Virus record (IMG/VR): IMGVR_UViG_3300023184_000025
Span: 281,155-345,154 of that record
Source of the DNA: a virus
Reading direction: 5' to 3' (one strand)
DNA length: 64,000 nt
Shown here: positions 6,672 to 24,887 of the stretch, piece after piece
Layout: each line of letters starts with the position of its first letter
Numbering within the stretch: the stretch's first letter is position 1
The notes under the pieces: generated by a model
Told to the model about the DNA's origin: nothing
Databases searched by the model: none
Seen by the model: only the letters and a program-made list of their open reading frames with translations
Translations under genes and position numbers: made by a program

Positions 6672-6770
6672 TTTTATTTTCCTTAAAAAAAGAATGAGTT
6701 TTAAATCATTCACTATTATGTATCAGTGTTTGCAACAATGTTAATTAAAATTGGGGGTATTTTGGTCCAA

Positions 6771-6793
6771 AAAAAACCCGCCGAAGCGGGTTC
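6771..6793 (-). terminator. Terminator of the tmRNA gene
   Basis: AACCCGC CGAA GCGGGTT followed on the minus strand by eight T, just after the tmRNA coding piece. Confidence 0.85.
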
Positions 6794-7065
6794 TGAGTTT
6801 CTGTTACGAGGTATGTCTTACCCTAGACGGCTTTTATCAAGCTGCCAATGCGAACTGTTCGTCGTTTGCGTTTACGTTTTTTGCTTGATTTACGGTCATC
6901 GCCTACCGTGCTGTCCACTCTGTTACTCTTTGCCCTGTCAAAACCATGCTCACCCCCGACAAGAATATACTAACCTAGTATACTCTTGGTGGAAGTGCCG
7001 GGGCTCGAACCCGGGTCCAAGACAACTTTCTCTTCGCCTCTTCCCTTTCGGGGTTTACAGCAATA
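6775..7065 (-). ncRNA. ssrA: Circularly permuted (two-piece) tmRNA
   Basis: Read on the minus strand, the acceptor piece comes first: a T-arm (CCGGG, TTCGAGC, CCCGG) and CACTTCC-A-CCA ending at 6987. A 29-nt spacer (6986-6958) follows, then the coding piece from 6957 (GGGGGTG). GGGGGTG pairs with CACTTCC over 7 bp (two G-U) to make the acceptor stem, which proves the permuted order. The tag frame (6869-6840) encodes ANDEQFALAA followed by TGA TAA. Two-piece tmRNA is known in alphaproteobacteria, some cyanobacteria and some betaproteobacteria. It rescues stalled ribosomes and tags peptides for ClpXP. The 5' end of the acceptor piece is approximate; the HNH stop codon is just upstream. Confidence 0.93.
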
Positions 7066-7068
7066 TTC

Positions 7069-7701
7069 TTATTTAATCAATCTACGCTTTTGTAAATTCA
7101 ATTCTGCTATTTTAGCATCGTCTGGCTTTAGATAGTAATTCTTCTCACCATCGTTATACCAGTGTCTACCAAACGCATTGTTGTTTTTATTCTTGCGTAG
7201 TTGAGTCCATTCAATTGTTGTTATCCAACCTTCTGGAATTTGTTCTTTATTATACTTTTTGCGTGATGACAAGTCAACCGCATCTTTACCCACACACCAA
7301 ACTTTTCCAAACTGCGAATTGTTTTCTTTCTGTTGGTGTTGCTTTTCAGCAAAGGTCTTCTTACGCTTTTCCATTGCTGAGTCAGTGTTTGCCAAATCAC
7401 ACACCTTCTTTTGATGTTCTTTGTTTACAGAAAAATTGTGTTCAGTGCGAATACCTGTAAATGGATTTGGGTGTAGTTGATGACGCAACTTTCCCGCTTC
7501 TCGTTGTCTTATTCTTACTAATTCTTCTTTTGGGCTTAACTTTGCTAAACCCTGCCACGCAACATAATCTTGCCAACGACCATATTCTTCATATAACTTG
7601 CGATGTGCTTCTGCGTGGTCATCAACAGATAATTCTACAAGATTGCTTGGATCGTCTGTTCCGCCTGCGTGTTTAGGAATAATATGATGTTTGTGGCTCA
7701 T
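7069..7701 (-). CDS. HNH homing-type endonuclease
   Basis: 210 residues. The N-terminus has the HNH core: HHIIPKHAGGTDDPSNLVELSV with DHAEAH following (residues 4-35). The C-terminal half is basic with repeated short NUMOD-like segments (W.. DGEKNYYLKPDDA). This is a free-standing mobile endonuclease of the phage type. It ends only a few bases before the tmRNA acceptor piece, suggesting the cassette targets ssrA. Confidence 0.85.
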   Translation of the reverse strand: MSHKHHIIPKHAGGTDDPSNLVELSVDDHAEAHRKLYEEYGRWQDYVAWQGLAKLSPKEELVRIRQREAGKLRHQLHPNPFTGIRTEHNFSVNKEHQKKVCDLANTDSAMEKRKKTFAEKQHQQKENNSQFGKVWCVGKDAVDLSSRKKYNKEQIPEGWITTIEWTQLRKNKNNNAFGRHWYNDGEKNYYLKPDDAKIAELNLQKRRLIK

Positions 7702-13422: not shown

Positions 13423-13893
13423 TCAAGCTACTTTTAAAGTTTTGAAACGATCAGCGGCATAGCTTGCGGCAAATGCGTTGGGTTTAACAAACGGTACAAC
13501 ATTACATGTTCCTTTAATATAGCCAATAGCCTGGCTAATAACACAGCTAGATCCATACTGATCATCAGGGTTAATGTCCAAGTGGACTTGAACCTGTCTA
13601 CCTTCAAATACATCTGCTAGCTTTAGGTACAACTCGCTAACTTTATACACTTCGGACATGAGGCGCATTGCTGGCCTATTGACTTTGTGATCGTAATCAC
13701 GTTCACGTTGTACCTCACCAAATAACTTACAACCGTTATTTCCGTTAATGTGTACAACAATAGCCAAGACGTAGTCAGCATACCACTGACCGTCAACACG
13801 CATACGTTCAGAATCACAGCCTAGATAAATTTTAGTATCTGGCCCTTGCGCTTCAATAAAGCTCTTGATTTCTTCTAGATTAATTTTTTTCAT
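13423..13893 (-). CDS. RNase H-like protein (DUF458/YkuK type)
   Basis: 156 residues. IYLGCDSERMRVDG (22-35) gives the first acidic residue of an RNase H fold; HLDINPDDQYGSS near 103 and a conserved Gly/Lys-rich C-terminus (IGYIKGTCNVVPFVKPNAFAA is the YkuK-like block) complete it. Bacillus YkuK is of unknown function. It may be a nuclease. Confidence 0.7.
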   Translation of the reverse strand: MKKINLEEIKSFIEAQGPDTKIYLGCDSERMRVDGQWYADYVLAIVVHINGNNGCKLFGEVQRERDYDHKVNRPAMRLMSEVYKVSELYLKLADVFEGRQVQVHLDINPDDQYGSSCVISQAIGYIKGTCNVVPFVKPNAFAASYAADRFKTLKVA

Positions 13894-13904
13894 GATTACC
13901 TCAG

Positions 13905-14684
13905 TTACGAGCTGGCATCAAGTACATGACTATACATGATGTCCTTTACTGTAGCAGTCCTTTCATTTTTGTTTTTGCTTCCCAATACCACAATCACGTA
14001 GTCTTTGTCTTTTTGTGTCACAAACAAACTCATACACCAACCTGCGGCATTGGTAAGACCAGTTTTGCTAATCACAATGTTGTTAAATTCAAACAACAAT
14101 GGTTGATTGGTATTGGTTAAGTTTACAATTTGAGATTTTTTCTTGACCTGTGTTTCAATTGAAACAGTTTTCTTAACTGATGCTTCTTTAATAAACCAAT
14201 AGCCGGATGCTGTTTGCACCATGTTGGCCACGTCATATACTGTGCTTACATTAAACACACTTAGGCCAGTTGGGTCAATAAATGCAGTATTATTCATTCC
14301 CCACACTTTGGCATGTAGGTTCATTTGTTTAACAAATTCGCTTCTTCCACCAGGATAATCTTCAGCAATAGTTTCGGCCGCGGCGTTGTCACTGCGAACT
14401 AGCATTGCATTTAACAGTTCGTATCTGGTGTAATATTGTCGTGGAATACTACTTGGAACACGACCACTAAGTAAAAGTTTTCTACCTAGGTCTTTGTTGT
14501 AGTCAAGTGTGACCATTGCGGTCATTAATTTAGTAATACTAGCAATAGGACGAATTTCTTCACCGTTGTGTACATATTGTGGTTTGTTGGAGACCACATC
14601 CAAGACTAATATACTTGAATCACTAGGAAATGCATAAGTGGGTATGCTAACCAGCATTGCAAGCATTATAAAAAGTCTCTTCAT
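13905..14684 (-). CDS. Periplasmic D-Ala-D-Ala carboxypeptidase/endopeptidase (S11, PbpG-like)
   Basis: 259 residues with a signal peptide (1-18, ending TYAF). All three penicillin-binding motifs are present: SITK near 49, SDN near 98, and KTG near 207. The size and the SDNAAAETIAEDYPGG and WGMNNTAFIDPTGLS segments match small S11 enzymes such as PBP7. It would act on peptidoglycan cross-links in the periplasm. In a phage it could aid lysis, remodel the wall for superinfection exclusion, or help growth of a large infected cell. Confidence 0.9.
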   Translation of the reverse strand: MKRLFIMLAMLVSIPTYAFPSDSSILVLDVVSNKPQYVHNGEEIRPIASITKLMTAMVTLDYNKDLGRKLLLSGRVPSSIPRQYYTRYELLNAMLVRSDNAAAETIAEDYPGGRSEFVKQMNLHAKVWGMNNTAFIDPTGLSVFNVSTVYDVANMVQTASGYWFIKEASVKKTVSIETQVKKKSQIVNLTNTNQPLLFEFNNIVISKTGLTNAAGWCMSLFVTQKDKDYVIVVLGSKNKNERTATVKDIMYSHVLDASS

Positions 14685-16627: not shown

Positions 16628-16646
16628 ATATAGAGGCACTCTCAAC

Positions 16647-16715
16647 AGCAGGCCTAGGAGGCAATCTGGTTGCTGAAACTTTTGCATCTGCAGATACTCA
16701 GTTTCTTCTCCTGCT
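16647..16715 (-). ncRNA. Structured spacer between tRNA-Met and tRNA-Lys
   Basis: Nested pairing AGCAGG/CCTGCT, GAAACT/AGTTTC and ATCTG/CAGAT in a 115-bp gene-free gap. May be a processing signal or small RNA. Confidence 0.3.
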
Positions 16716-16742
16716 TTGACTTACGCCAAGAATGCTTTTATA

Positions 16743-17115: not shown

Positions 17116-17191
17116 TGGCTCCTCGACCTGGGCTCGAACCAGGGACAACTTGATTAACAGTCAAGTGCTCTACCAACTGAGCTATCAAGGA
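17116..17191 (-). tRNA. tRNA-Asn (GUU)
   Basis: Loop CTGTTAA, acceptor TCCTTGA/TCGAGGA, G73, CCA encoded. Confidence 0.94.
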
Positions 17192-17199
17192 ATAAAATA

Positions 17200-17350
17200 G
17201 TTAACACACTCCGAGGAATGTGTGTATTAAAGCACTCTAAAATACTTAGGCTGCCTGTTCTTAAAGAATGCTTTAATACGCTGTAATTTTTCCCTACACA
17301 AGAGTAGTTCCATCCTACAGGCCGCCCATTTGCCCATGTTTAGAGTGCAG
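17200..17350 (-). ncRNA. Pseudoknotted structured RNA downstream of a 57-residue ORF
   Basis: GTATTAAAGCA (17224-17234) pairs with TGCTTTAATAC (17269-17279), and GCACTCTAAA (17232-17241) pairs with TTTAGAGTGC (17339-17348). The order a-b-a'-b' makes an H-type pseudoknot, with a shared GCA at the junction. A CACAC/GTGTG hairpin flanks it next to tRNA-Asn. No ORF fits. Confidence 0.55.
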
Positions 17351-17380
17351 GCTAGGATCTCGTTTCCTATAACACTTTGG

Positions 17381-17554
17381 CTAATTTACACTAAACGTTG
17401 ACAATTTGGTCAACGCTTCGTGATGTTTTCTAGCACGTTCAAACTTATCTTGAATAAGTTTTTGAAGCTGTTCTTTGGACATCTCTCCGAGAGCAGTTTC
17501 ATAAGCTTGTTCTACGATTCGTTCGTTTAATTTTTTGTAATCTATCTGTTTCAT
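17381..17554 (-). CDS. Small helical protein in the tRNA array
   Basis: 57 residues from ATG 17554 with ribosome site AAAGGA. The sequence is strongly helical and charged (LNERIVEQAYETALGEMSKEQLQKLIQDK). It lies between a terminator and a pseudoknotted RNA. No family recognised. Confidence 0.7.
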   Translation of the reverse strand: MKQIDYKKLNERIVEQAYETALGEMSKEQLQKLIQDKFERARKHHEALTKLSTFSVN

Positions 17555-17569
17555 TTTTTCCTTTGTAAA

Positions 17570-17603
17570 AACAAAAAACCCCAGGGTGTTTAGTCCTAGG
17601 GTC
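17570..17603 (-). terminator. Intrinsic terminator inside the tRNA/ncRNA region
   Basis: Minus strand ACCCTAGG ... CCTGGGGT (8 bp with one G-U) followed by TTTTTTGTTTTT. Confidence 0.65.
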
Positions 17604-17627
17604 CTTTTAGAATTTGATGTATTTTTA

Positions 17628-17759
17628 TTACATCTTGTCTCCTACGGACCCTTGATTTTCTGGAATTGTAATTGCACAGTTAAAATTAAAACCGCGTGAC
17701 CAGGCAGATGCTGTCTGGAGCATAACGGGTTTTAACGATAACATGTAATGTTTGTTCAT
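17628..17759 (-). CDS. Possible 43-residue ORF or small structured RNA
   Basis: ATG 17759 to TAA 17628 encodes 43 residues without similarity known to me. The ATG lies about 10 bp after a -10 box, with no ribosome site, so a leaderless ORF or a non-coding RNA (hairpin CCAGGCAG ATG CTGTCTGG at 17701-17719) are both possible. Confidence 0.3.
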   Translation of the reverse strand: MNKHYMLSLKPVMLQTASAWSRGFNFNCAITIPENQGSVGDKM

Positions 17760-17769
17760 CTTAGTTTCT

Positions 17770-17798
17770 ATTGTACTTTATTTATATCTTAAAGTCAA
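17770..17798 (-). promoter_or_regulatory. Internal sigma70 promoter in the tRNA array
   Basis: TTGACT (17798-17793), 17 bp, TACAAT (17775-17770). Confidence 0.6.
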
Positions 17799-17845
17799 CC
17801 TTTAAGGTAAAAATGTTGTGTTGTATAGATACAACACTCCTGAGT

Positions 17846-17920
17846 TGGTTGCGGGGGAAGGATTCGAACCTCCGTCTTCCGGGTTATGAGCCCGATAGTC
17901 TACCACTGACGTACCCCGCG
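17846..17920 (-). tRNA. Initiator tRNA-fMet (CAU)
   Basis: Loop CTCATAA in a stem with three G-C pairs next to the loop, and an unpaired C1-A72, the two hallmarks of bacterial initiator tRNA. CCA encoded. Confidence 0.93.
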
Positions 17921-17942
17921 GTAAAAGTTAGAGTTTTTATAT

Positions 17943-18018
17943 TGGCGGTCTTAGGGGGTAACGATCCCCACTCTTACGGCGTGACAAGCCGTCGTGCGTC
18001 CATGAACACTTTAAGACC
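17943..18018 (-). tRNA. tRNA-Asp (GUC), unusual T-loop
   Basis: Perfect acceptor GGTCTTA/TAAGACC, loop TTGTCAC, G73, CCA encoded. The T-loop reads ATCGTTA instead of TTCRANY, so the T54-A58 pair appears swapped. Confidence 0.85.
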
Positions 18019-18024
18019 AAATTT

Positions 18025-18171
18025 TTATAGTCAAGCACCGAGTATGCCAATTTAGGAGTCCGGTGCTTCCGTTCCAAAGCCGATGCAGTTATATCAGGAT
18101 CCGCCTCCGGCCGATGGGACCCGAATAGTGTATGCGTCCATACACGATACCTTATCGATGCTTGACTATAA
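18025..18171 (-). ncRNA. 147-nt structured RNA closed by a 13-bp perfect helix
   Basis: 18025-18037 and 18159-18171 are perfect inverted repeats. Inside are GTGTATG CGTC CATACAC (18128-18145) and AAGCACCG/CGGTGCTT (18033-18040 with 18061-18068). The last helix shares AAGCA with the closing helix, so two folds compete. No ORF. Confidence 0.6.
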
Positions 18172-18174
18172 AAA

Positions 18175-18257
18175 CATATTGAAACACACTAACTACCTTG
18201 GTATGTACTAAAGTTCATAGAACCGCTACGACCCTATCTTTAATGTGCTTCAATATG
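18175..18257 (-). ncRNA. Structured RNA with a 14-bp closing helix
   Basis: 18175-18188 pairs with 18244-18257 over 14 bp; the single imperfect position is G-U on the minus strand but A-C on the plus strand, which supports minus-strand RNA. Confidence 0.5.
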
Positions 18258-18454
18258 CTCTGCATCCCCCGGCGGTAATTATAGAGTATCAAGATACGAC
18301 GCTATCGTACCCATCACACACTCCTTCCACCCGCTTCCCGACAGGGACCGTTCTCGCATTGCTAGCGGCCTTTTGGTTCGAAGACTACCACCCGTACATG
18401 TCACTGTACTTCTCATCGTGTGGGTCACACTATCCGGAGACACCCGGAACGTTC
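18258..18454 (-). other. Gene-free spacer before tRNA-Tyr
   Basis: About 200 bp with several short hairpins (TACGA/TCGTA, GTACA/TGTAC, GTGTG/CACAC). The plus-strand frame through it ends in antisense tRNA and lacks a ribosome site. Possibly part of one larger ornate RNA with its neighbours. Confidence 0.35.
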
Positions 18455-18541
18455 TGGTGGATGAGGTTGGACTTGAACCAACAATGCCATTACGACGGAA
18501 GATTTACAGTCTCCTGGGGTTACCAATTTTCCTACACATCC
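18455..18541 (-). tRNA. tRNA-Tyr (GUA)
   Basis: Loop CTGTAAA, long variable arm, CCA encoded. The acceptor has one T-T mismatch (GGATGTG/CTCATCC). Confidence 0.9.
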
Positions 18542-18544
18542 AAA

Positions 18545-18600
18545 ATTAGGATAAGCTACTTGTTTTCCAAACAAGCCCTTAATTGAGCGGTTACTCTGTC
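18545..18600 (-). pseudogene. tRNA-like relic with GGA anticodon-type hairpin
   Basis: GCTTGTTTGGAAAACAAG resembles an anticodon arm of tRNA-Ser(GGA), but the flanking acceptor and T-arm do not pair and the region touches tRNA-Tyr. It may be a decayed tRNA or just a hairpin. Confidence 0.25.
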
Positions 18601-18729
18601 CATCTCTTTTATTCTAATGTCTGTGTGCAGAGAGATACTGCCTATCAGATTCTGGATTGCTCCGCTAACGGTCTTCTGCCACCGGACCTCTATCGCTAGT
18701 CAAGCGCCATTTTAACGAAAATAGTAACG
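18588..18729 (-). ncRNA. Structured spacer between tRNA-Glu and tRNA-Tyr
   Basis: Outer pairing GTTACT/AGTAAC (18590-18595 with 18723-18728) encloses ATCTCT/AGAGAT, CGCT/AGCG and ATTTT/AAAAT hairpins. No ORF. Confidence 0.4.
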
Positions 18730-18734
18730 GGATT

Positions 18735-18809
18735 TGGTACTGGGTACGGGAATCGAACCCGTCTTACAAACGTGAAAGGCTTGTGTCCTAACCGATAGAC
18801 GAACCCAGC
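18735..18809 (-). tRNA. tRNA-Glu (UUC)
   Basis: Loop CTTTCAC, acceptor GCTGGGT/ACCCAGT with G1-U72, CCA encoded. Confidence 0.92.
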
Positions 18810-18840
18810 ATAAAGAAAAACCCTATAGCAGTCCAGTTAA

Positions 18841-18927
18841 GCAACCGAACAGGGCCGTGTTAAAGAGAGAAGCCACGGTTGCAGGACCTAGTGCTCTTGC
18901 GAGGAAGTATCCAGGCGATGTGGCTTC
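18841..18927 (-). ncRNA. Pseudoknotted spacer between tRNA-Ser and tRNA-Glu
   Basis: GCAACCG (18841-18847) pairs with CGGTTGC (18876-18882), and GAAGCCAC (18869-18876) with GTGGCTTC (18920-18927): again a-b-a'-b' order with one shared base at the junction. Confidence 0.5.
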
Positions 18928-18934
18928 AAAAACT

Positions 18935-19024
18935 TGGCGGAGCGACTGGGAGTCGAACCCAGTCAACGCTTTAACACGTTGTACGGATTAGCAATCCGCT
19001 GCCTTACCGTTCGGCCACCGCTCC
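18935..19024 (-). tRNA. tRNA-Ser (GCU)
   Basis: Loop TTGCTAA, long variable arm, GGAGCGG/CGCTCC type acceptor, G73, CCA encoded. Confidence 0.93.
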
Positions 19025-19035
19025 AAAAAAAATGC

Positions 19036-19269
19036 TATATTAAAATACACTAAAGGAACCATTGTGCATCTATGTCTACACTATACGAACGTCTCGTATA
19101 GGCCTGCACGGTCATTACTGCCTACATACTCCGCCGCTTCTCTGGGATTAGTTCCGTATCATCTAAACGGACCCCGGTTTCATAGACTGTAAGATTGCGT
19201 AGGGCGGCCCCTGTGCTCGCGTCTTACAGTCCCTAACGGTGTAGGTAACCTTTAATACATTTTAATATA
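19036..19269 (-). ncRNA. 234-nt structured RNA at the head of the tRNA/RNA operon
   Basis: A 21-bp closing helix (19036-19056 with 19249-19269) is fully paired only in minus-strand RNA, where four positions are G-U or A-U; on the plus strand they would be A-C. Inside are perfect hairpins GACTGTAAGA/TCTTACAGTC (19185-19194 with 19222-19231) and CTATACGA/TCGTATAG (19081-19101). No ORF. It lies just downstream of a perfect consensus promoter. Comparable in position to the T4 stable RNAs C and D, but no sequence match is claimed. Confidence 0.65.
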
Positions 19270-19288
19270 GTAACCCTTGCGGGTTACT
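19270..19288 (-). other. Leader hairpin
   Basis: AGTAACCC TTGC GGGTTACT, an 8-bp hairpin between the promoter and the 234-nt RNA; no T run follows on the minus strand, so not an obvious terminator. Confidence 0.4.
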
Positions 19289-19344
19289 ACATAAAAACTC
19301 TAAAATTTTTAAAGAACATTGTTGATTTCTCAACGTATGCATCA

Positions 19345-19373
19345 ATTATATGACACTTTGCGATTTTTGTCAA
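19345..19373 (-). promoter_or_regulatory. Perfect consensus sigma70 promoter of the tRNA/ncRNA operon
   Basis: TTGACA (19373-19368), 17 bp, TATAAT (19350-19345), pointing into the RNA cluster. Confidence 0.85.
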
Positions 19374-19437
19374 CTACTTGTTTGTTGTATTTTTACAACA
19401 CTCTGTTGTTGTCCGGAATTGCTTCCTTCATGTTTCT

Positions 19438-19466
19438 ATTGTACTAGATCTGCCAATTTTGGTCTA
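19438..19466 (-). promoter_or_regulatory. Second, weaker sigma70 promoter of the RNA operon
   Basis: TAGACC (19466-19461), 17 bp, TACAAT (19443-19438). Confidence 0.45.
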
Positions 19467-19471
19467 CCTAT

Positions 19472-19505
19472 AAAAAGAAAACCCGCCTAGTTGGCGGGTC
19501 TTTGT
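19472..19505 (-). terminator. Intrinsic terminator upstream of the RNA operon promoters
   Basis: ACCCGCC TAGTT GGCGGGT with T-rich tract on the minus strand, 17 bp past the 34-residue ORF; it would insulate the RNA operon. Confidence 0.75.
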
Positions 19506-19521
19506 TGATAGTACTTTCTAG

Positions 19522-19626
19522 TTATCTAGATTTCTCAAGACCCGCATCAGACATGTGTTCATAGTCATAACTCACAAAATCTCGTGTGTTACTATTAGTG
19601 TGCATAGACAATGGTTGATAGTTCAT
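19522..19626 (-). CDS. Possible 34-residue ORF
   Basis: ATG 19626 to TAA 19522 just before a terminator; TATAAT is 5-10 bp upstream, no ribosome site. Sequence is polar. Unrecognised. Confidence 0.35.
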   Translation of the reverse strand: MNYQPLSMHTNSNTRDFVSYDYEHMSDAGLEKSR

Positions 19627-19729
19627 AGTACTATTATATATCCATAATCTTTAAAAATTAATTTTTTCCTAGTTTTTTTACCAAAGCAACTACCCGGGTC
19701 CAAATAAATAAATTTTTAAAAAGTATCAA

Positions 19730-22968: not shown

Positions 22969-24887
<1,919 letters not shown>

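Follow-up and report, generated by a model that had tools for sequence, protein, structure and literature searches.

Introduction

The reasons why phages carry dozens of tRNA genes are debated. Among the ornate RNAs encoded in phage tRNA islands, GOLLD and ROOL assemble into homo-oligomeric cages, the GOLLD cage being an RNA-only 14-mer; GOLLD contains a tRNA in some cases, its level was reported to increase during lysis, and in pull-downs it reportedly bound ribosomes (PMC12286853). Phage T4 encodes two small stable RNAs (119–139 nt), RNA C and RNA D, flush with its tRNAs, and hepatitis delta virus (HDV)-like theta ribozymes also occur near phage tRNAs (PMC10879173). Here we describe the tRNA array of IMG/VR record IMGVR_UViG_3300023184_000025, which belongs to a giant freshwater virus of bacteria. 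The stretch analysed, referred to as the window, comprises 64,000 nucleotides (positions 281155–345154 of the 345,154-base record), and feature coordinates are those of the window. At 17.2–19.4 kb its minus strand is predicted to encode six or more distinct families of structured RNA, named A, B, C, D1, D2 and F (the modules), along with a stem-closed element, Dm. As judged from comparative analysis, the six families are mutually unrelated and previously uncatalogued, and their shapes are preserved in well over 100 related viral sequences.

Structured RNAs in the spacers of the tRNA array

Every spacer of the 17.2–19.4 kb span is bordered by tRNA genes. Relatives were fetched via the protein neighbours of window genes, and it was observed that the spacers were conserved as separate blocks (~70–95% nucleotide identity) that could be traced by iterative profiles. 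An original prediction, made from the letters of this DNA alone, had placed an ornate RNA in each spacer. This held for most of them; the spacer 17381–17845 contains a promoter and small open reading frames (ORFs), and 18810–18868 has no assignment. The relatives, on whose pairing the prediction had been staked, showed conserved and covarying pairing. The long closing helices were found for A (~21 bp) and F (14 bp), and that of D2, at 19 bp, exceeded the length first noted. The two pseudoknots described as clear lie in D1 and D2, and both covary.

The folds of D2, D1, and A were compared with 500 shuffles and with slid controls. All three beat every shuffle and every slid control in the cells paired, in the number of both-side changes, and in the covariation score. 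RNA D2 (18024–18172, minus strand) consists of a 19-bp closing helix (18172–18154 with 18042–18024), a hairpin with a GACG loop, a hairpin whose loop forms a pseudoknot, and a 3′ hairpin. In D2, 97.5% of cells were paired, with 859 both-side changes compared to 276 ± 16 in shuffles, and the covariation score was 0.684 (slid controls, at most 0.110). The pseudoknot, GGCCG at 18112–18108 with CGGCU at 18082–18078, was paired in 99.5% of cells. The closing helix was wholly rewritten between the window (UAUAGUCAAGCA/UGCUUGACUAUA) and relatives (GUUUAGUGUUAUC/GAUAACACUAAAC). Single-sequence folding of D2 gave z = −4.4. The covariance model of D2 found exactly one copy in its own genome (E 5.5e-30) and one copy apiece in 24 of 50 records, some of them fetched through GroEL; the D2 pattern was found in none of 11.3 million cellular contigs. 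In some members (for example, L040, L038, and L043) the GACG loop of the first hairpin is replaced by CUGAUCA, which includes the self-complementary UGAUCA and may be a kissing-loop dimer site. Since GACG loops recur, CsrA-type GGA loops were also considered; the loops vary (GGACG, AGACG, and UGACG), and this candidate was dropped.

RNA D1 (18255–18451, minus strand) has hairpins, a pseudoknot, and long-range 3′ helices. Its cells were paired to 95.1%, with 228 both-side changes compared to 66 ± 6 in shuffles and a covariation score of 0.454 (slid controls, at most 0.108). The D1 pseudoknot (ACCC at 18425–18422 with GGGU at 18393–18390) was paired in 100% of cells, and two of its pairs showed compensatory changes.

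In RNA A (19035–19270, minus strand), a closing helix of ~21 bp (19270–19249 with 19054–19035) surrounds inner helices; it too was wholly rewritten between the window and relatives. In 46 diverse sequences 84.4% of the cells were paired, both-side changes numbered 437 compared to 144 ± 13 in shuffles, and the covariation score was 0.474 (slid controls, at most 0.129). A thermodynamic structure of A from RNAalifold was dropped in favour of the covariation-led one. The 3′ helix P5 was only ~54–56% paired on the A2 alignment, because the two subtypes of A align poorly at P5. The predicted end-to-end closing helices of A and D2 are thus demonstrated by covariation.

Significance of individual pairs was assessed by a home-made R-scape-style test, with a G statistic and average product correction (APC); substitutions re-placed along a FastTree tree served as the null. 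Among the significant pairs, Watson-Crick ones made up 20 of 21 for D2, 17 of 22 for A, 9 of 10 for D1, 5 of 6 for C, and 3 of 3 for B, in agreement with the cell counts given above for D2, D1, and A. RNA C (18549–18734, minus strand; ~185 nt) gave 3 of 4 in a later run. RNA B (18869–18927, minus strand) is a 59-nt RNA with an 8-bp closing helix and a single-sequence folding z of −3.0; its three covarying pairs became one in a later set. For RNA F (17203–17372, minus strand), which comprises a 5′ hairpin, a CUGUA/UACAG helix, and a 14-bp handle-like closing stem (GUAUUAAAGCAUUC/GAGUGCUUUAAUAC), 9 of the 17 significant pairs were Watson-Crick with an enlarged sequence set. Overall, D2, D1, and A showed very strong covariation of their predicted folds, which extended to the pseudoknots; in F and C it was moderate, and in B weak. 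The support that covariation lends to C and B is modest.

The conserved pairs also contain G-U wobbles. For instance, of 77 D2 sequences, 61 had GU at one pair and 72 at another, and one pair of D1 was GU in 37 of 37. Such wobbles in conserved pairs show that the minus strand is the RNA strand, in agreement with what had been deduced from G-U positions before.

Conservation and arrangement of the modules

In the final counts, the families contained 126 distinct sequences for D2, 139 for D1 (196 loci), 144 for A (209 loci), 145 for F (190 loci), 88 for C (108 loci), and 31 for B; many of these loci are related, so that the counts are not independent. For each of the DNA patterns of D1, D2, A, and F, the number of matching stretches in IMG/VR was at least 109, the highest being at least 119, in scans that favour sequences near the seeds. 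When arrays were selected by a neighbouring protein alone, 23 of 33 held at least one module, so that the families cannot be put down to the searches made with them.

For all copies of all modules, each neighbour that was scored lies on the same strand, which is the tRNA strand. The modules occur as one copy per locus, C alone having a second copy in a few cases, and their distance from a tRNA is 0–26 nt, with a median gap of a few nucleotides for most of them. Most tRNA junctions in these arrays are 1–20 nt long and have no module. Among relatives, the order of the modules and the tRNA junctions that they occupy differ. Such new orders at different junctions indicate that each module is an independent unit. 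The single-copy, tRNA-strand, and shuffled arrangement argues that each module may be a gene in its own right, with an RNA product that acts in trans, and not a mere spacer. The comparison of relatives establishes the conserved predicted folds, the strand, the position, the leader motifs, and the shuffling.

An rRNA-like leader precedes the array

A perfect σ70 promoter and a terminator had been proposed for this cluster. The promoter, TTGACA-17-TATAAT at 19345–19373 (minus strand), matches the consensus at 12 of 12 positions, and upstream of it an intrinsic terminator whose 10-bp stem leads into a T-rich tail was confirmed at 19478–19502 (minus strand). Downstream of the promoter come a boxB-like hairpin (GUUGAGAAAUCAAC; 19321–19334, minus strand), kept in relatives between promoter and boxA, and then a boxA-like antitermination element (UGUUCUUUAAAAAUUU; 19303–19318, minus strand). 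This leader order recurs in relatives. In their inter-tRNA spacers, the motif GTTCTTTAA was found 82 times in the sense and 5 times in the antisense orientation. A promoter lay at most 75 nt upstream for 67 of the 82 boxA motifs, compared with 128 of 3351 in the control.

The E. coli rrnB leader has a promoter, a hairpin, and boxA (TGCTCTTTAACAATTT) in the same order as the phage operon, so that the rrn-type layout was found here in full. The phage operon resembles bacterial rRNA operons also in that stem-closed RNAs have tRNAs between them; it differs in that the phage RNAs are no rRNA and match no rRNA family of Rfam. In E. coli, the boxA-Nus-SuhB complex opposes Rho and aids correct rRNA maturation (PMC4807359). 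By analogy, boxA in the phage array may be used in a Nus-type manner.

Comparison with known RNAs

Rfam 15 (4227 models, HEARO included) was searched over 17150–19700. Only tRNA reached its cut-off, the other matches (E ≤ 10) being weak and below the cut-offs of their families. The large-RNA models named in the original prediction (GOLLD, ROOL, HEARO, and others) thus gave no match in this region, and the claim of a GOLLD- or ROOL-like position with no matching family was upheld, since GOLLD occurs in the same arrays of relatives. GOLLD (RF02032), tested at 150 bits or more, had no match in the window or in the whole record; among 50 related records, three contained it, with scores of 189–201 bits. 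In a 367-kb relative, RNA A, GOLLD, and D1 share one array within ~2.2 kb. The GOLLD matches are those in L506 (1501–1966), L507, and L508/L258 (311–775), and a tRNA is predicted inside the GOLLD match.

Like GOLLD, the modules are located in a phage tRNA array and include elaborate, pseudoknotted folds. GOLLD, however, is a single long RNA, often >800 nt, for which a covariance model of its own exists, whereas the modules are several, unrelated, and 60–240 nt long. The modules are niche neighbours of GOLLD and not members of its family. ROOL (RF03087), likewise ornate, occurs in phages or prophages close to tRNA islands; its covariance model found no match in the window or in 50 relatives, the latter search having been run without a positive control. 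With T4 RNA C and RNA D, also named in the original prediction, the modules share the position flush with phage tRNAs but not the sequence: module profiles run against NC_000866 (69500–73500) gave no match above noise, the best (E 0.18) lying outside rnaC and rnaD. The theta ribozymes also adjoin phage tRNA genes. Unlike them, the covarying topology of D2 and D1 has no nested double pseudoknot, and no Rfam match was obtained; a home-made, weak descriptor of the HDV-type nested double pseudoknot gave 0 matches (shuffles 0, 0, 0, 0, and 2). When 50,697 cultured-phage records were searched by BLASTN with the window and with the type-2 modules, A and D2 had no match, and D1 had one 24-nt chance match and nothing credible.

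In well over 100 uncultivated viral contigs, the arrays have in common a library of RNAs that fold independently, under an rRNA-like leader and unseen by Rfam. This points to a far larger guild of tRNA-island RNAs, with GOLLD and ROOL as two of its members. The modules offer several compact (60–240 nt) targets for structural work, and the role of tRNA-island RNAs during infection becomes testable by comparative and genetic means.

A handle stem with exchangeable payloads

The RNA cluster continues past 17192, with a further RNA element at 16629–16742 (minus strand) directly after tRNA-Lys(UUU). This handle element has the arms UAUAAAAGCAUUCU...AGAGUGCCUCUAUA around a payload of ~85 nt. One closing stem, the handle stem (UAUANAAACACAUU.../...AGUGUGUUUNUAUA), was found to be common to several spacers with unrelated interiors. 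Dm (18175–18257, minus strand; folding z = −5.5) carries it as an 18-bp stem around a short payload. RNA A has the handle in many relatives and a variant of it in the window, and the stem of F is handle-like. It may be noted that the core positions of the handle are conserved by construction, as they define it; this does not apply to the outer positions, which covary.

A scan for the handle stem alone yielded, among the matches listed, 85 distinct elements, all on the same strand as a tRNA not more than 1 kb away, and 70 of these 85 start exactly 0 nt after the upstream tRNA. Strand agreement with the tRNAs was complete (82/82 and 77/77). In loci that did not come from the handle scan, the handle followed Lys(UUU) in 54 of 122 cases, Gln(UUG) in 31 of 114, Glu(UUC) in 35 of 183, and other tRNAs in 48 of 3123. 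The corresponding figures in protein-selected arrays were 9/26 for Lys, 5/25 for Gln, 2/24 for Glu, and 2/645 for the others; the preference for Lys and Gln is therefore independent of the RNA searches, and that for Glu(UUC) comes for the most part from loci that RNA A had brought in.

The payloads 3′ of tRNA-Lys(UUU) and tRNA-Gln(UUG) were hypervariable in relatives (L012, L013, L014, L020, L225, and others). Among Lys handles whose tRNAs were at least 97% identical, the arms were 87% identical and the payloads 54%, compared to 49% for shuffled payloads. The L225 payload holds a tRNA T-arm-like sequence (GGTTCGAATCC), a hint that some payloads derive from tRNA fragments. We know of no description of an RNA handle with a hypervariable payload. 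The tRNAs Lys(UUU), Gln(UUG), and Glu(UUC) have a thiolated wobble uridine in common and are favoured targets of anticodon nucleases. It is conceivable, if rather speculative, that the handle is an RNA-level variable cassette for counter-defence or tRNA protection, its interior being swapped wholesale between close relatives after Lys and Gln, with RNA A as the conserved payload after Glu(UUC).

Possible functions of the modules

The array is probably an operon of stable phage RNAs with the build of a small rRNA operon, from which the modules are released to act in trans. The strong σ70 promoter would fire into the leader with its boxB-like hairpin and boxA. As suggested by the sequence and by rRNA biology, RNA polymerase would then be carried through kilobases of untranslated, tRNA-punctuated RNA by host NusB/NusE, SuhB probably taking part, and Nus factors would help the long-range stems to close. 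Each module would fold as an independent domain, and in A, D2, Dm, and B a helix between the two ends would close it. As the modules lie 0–26 nt from tRNAs, tRNA maturation (RNase P and 3′ nucleases) would release discrete RNAs, whose closed ends would resist exonucleases. We infer that the modules are so expressed and processed, and that they act in trans as structural or ribonucleoprotein-forming RNAs. Since they travel only with tRNA arrays in a phage that encodes a tmRNA as well, we tentatively prefer a role in supporting the phage's own translation programme, and this is put forward as a possibility. Two observations weigh against the operon of trans-acting RNAs. Matches to E. coli 16S or 23S rRNA, whether by complementarity or by mimicry, were no better than those of shuffles, and direct ribosome contact is not indicated. 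Moreover, 10 of the 33 protein-selected arrays had none of the six modules, which implies that no module is indispensable.

The modules might instead be counter-defence RNAs, i.e., decoys or RNA antitoxins against host nucleases or toxins, a doubtful reading that is most plausible for the handles after Lys(UUU), Gln(UUG), and Glu(UUC). There, hypervariable payloads stand next to conserved arms and a conserved tRNA, and the handle strongly prefers three tRNAs that anticodon nucleases attack. The families A, D1, D2, and F, however, are deeply conserved and not hypervariable, and no defence partner was identified. It is unlikely that the modules are cis-acting processing elements (scaffolds, RNase sites, or self-cleaving ribozymes) with no life after tRNA maturation. 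Their flush, strictly co-oriented position would suit this, as would the precedent of theta ribozymes near phage tRNAs (PMC10879173), but the conserved cores and pseudoknots go far beyond the needs of spacing, most junctions of the same arrays do without a module, the tRNA partners change freely, and neither an Rfam ribozyme nor the HDV-type descriptor was matched.

Folded single-stranded DNA, as in attC-like recombination sites, would equally fit the stem covariation taken alone, and the shuffling of modules and payloads, together with a handle of conserved inverted arms and variable interior, recalls DNA-level cassettes. Such cassettes are nonetheless very improbable here, given the complete strand agreement with the tRNAs, the G-U wobbles on the tRNA-sense strand, and the leader of rrn type; next to the cluster no recombinase came to notice, although no search was aimed at recombinases. 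A descent of the modules from diverged or split GOLLD or ROOL RNAs, which occupy the same tRNA-island niche, have pseudoknots, and in the case of GOLLD sometimes hold a tRNA (PMC12286853), can hardly be entertained: it was refuted at the sequence and covariance-model level, as the modules are self-contained (60–240 nt each), no Rfam match appeared at permissive E-values in 17150–19700, the own genome has no GOLLD, and GOLLD coexists with A and D1 in the ~2.2 kb of one relative.

Other features of the window

The spacer 17381–17845 (region E) was at first taken as RNA. This was dropped because its 43-aa ORF (17628–17759, minus strand) is conserved at the protein level; a SAWS...IP...GSV motif is kept in 4 distinct sequences. 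The small conserved protein is 37–44 aa long and sits between a promoter and GC-rich inverted repeats. The spacer also holds a 57-aa ORF and the second promoter of the array, TTGACT-17-TACAAT at 17770–17798 (minus strand; 10/12 match).

The record contains a T4-like DNA polymerase and a GroEL gene (22969–24588), on which basis it is placed, by gene content, among the large tailed phages. ARAGORN predicted 28 tRNAs in the window, 25 of which fall at 12.4–19.1 kb, all on the minus strand. Amid the tRNAs are genes for a D-Ala-D-Ala carboxypeptidase-like (13905–14684) and an RNase H-like protein (13423–13893); a protein route to cellular relatives led to one distant carboxypeptidase. A phage-encoded, permuted transfer-messenger RNA (tmRNA) of betaproteobacterial type, with the tag ANDEQFALAA, lies at 6746–7115. 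The G+C content of the tRNA/RNA stretch was 0.38–0.49, compared with 0.27–0.34 immediately upstream.

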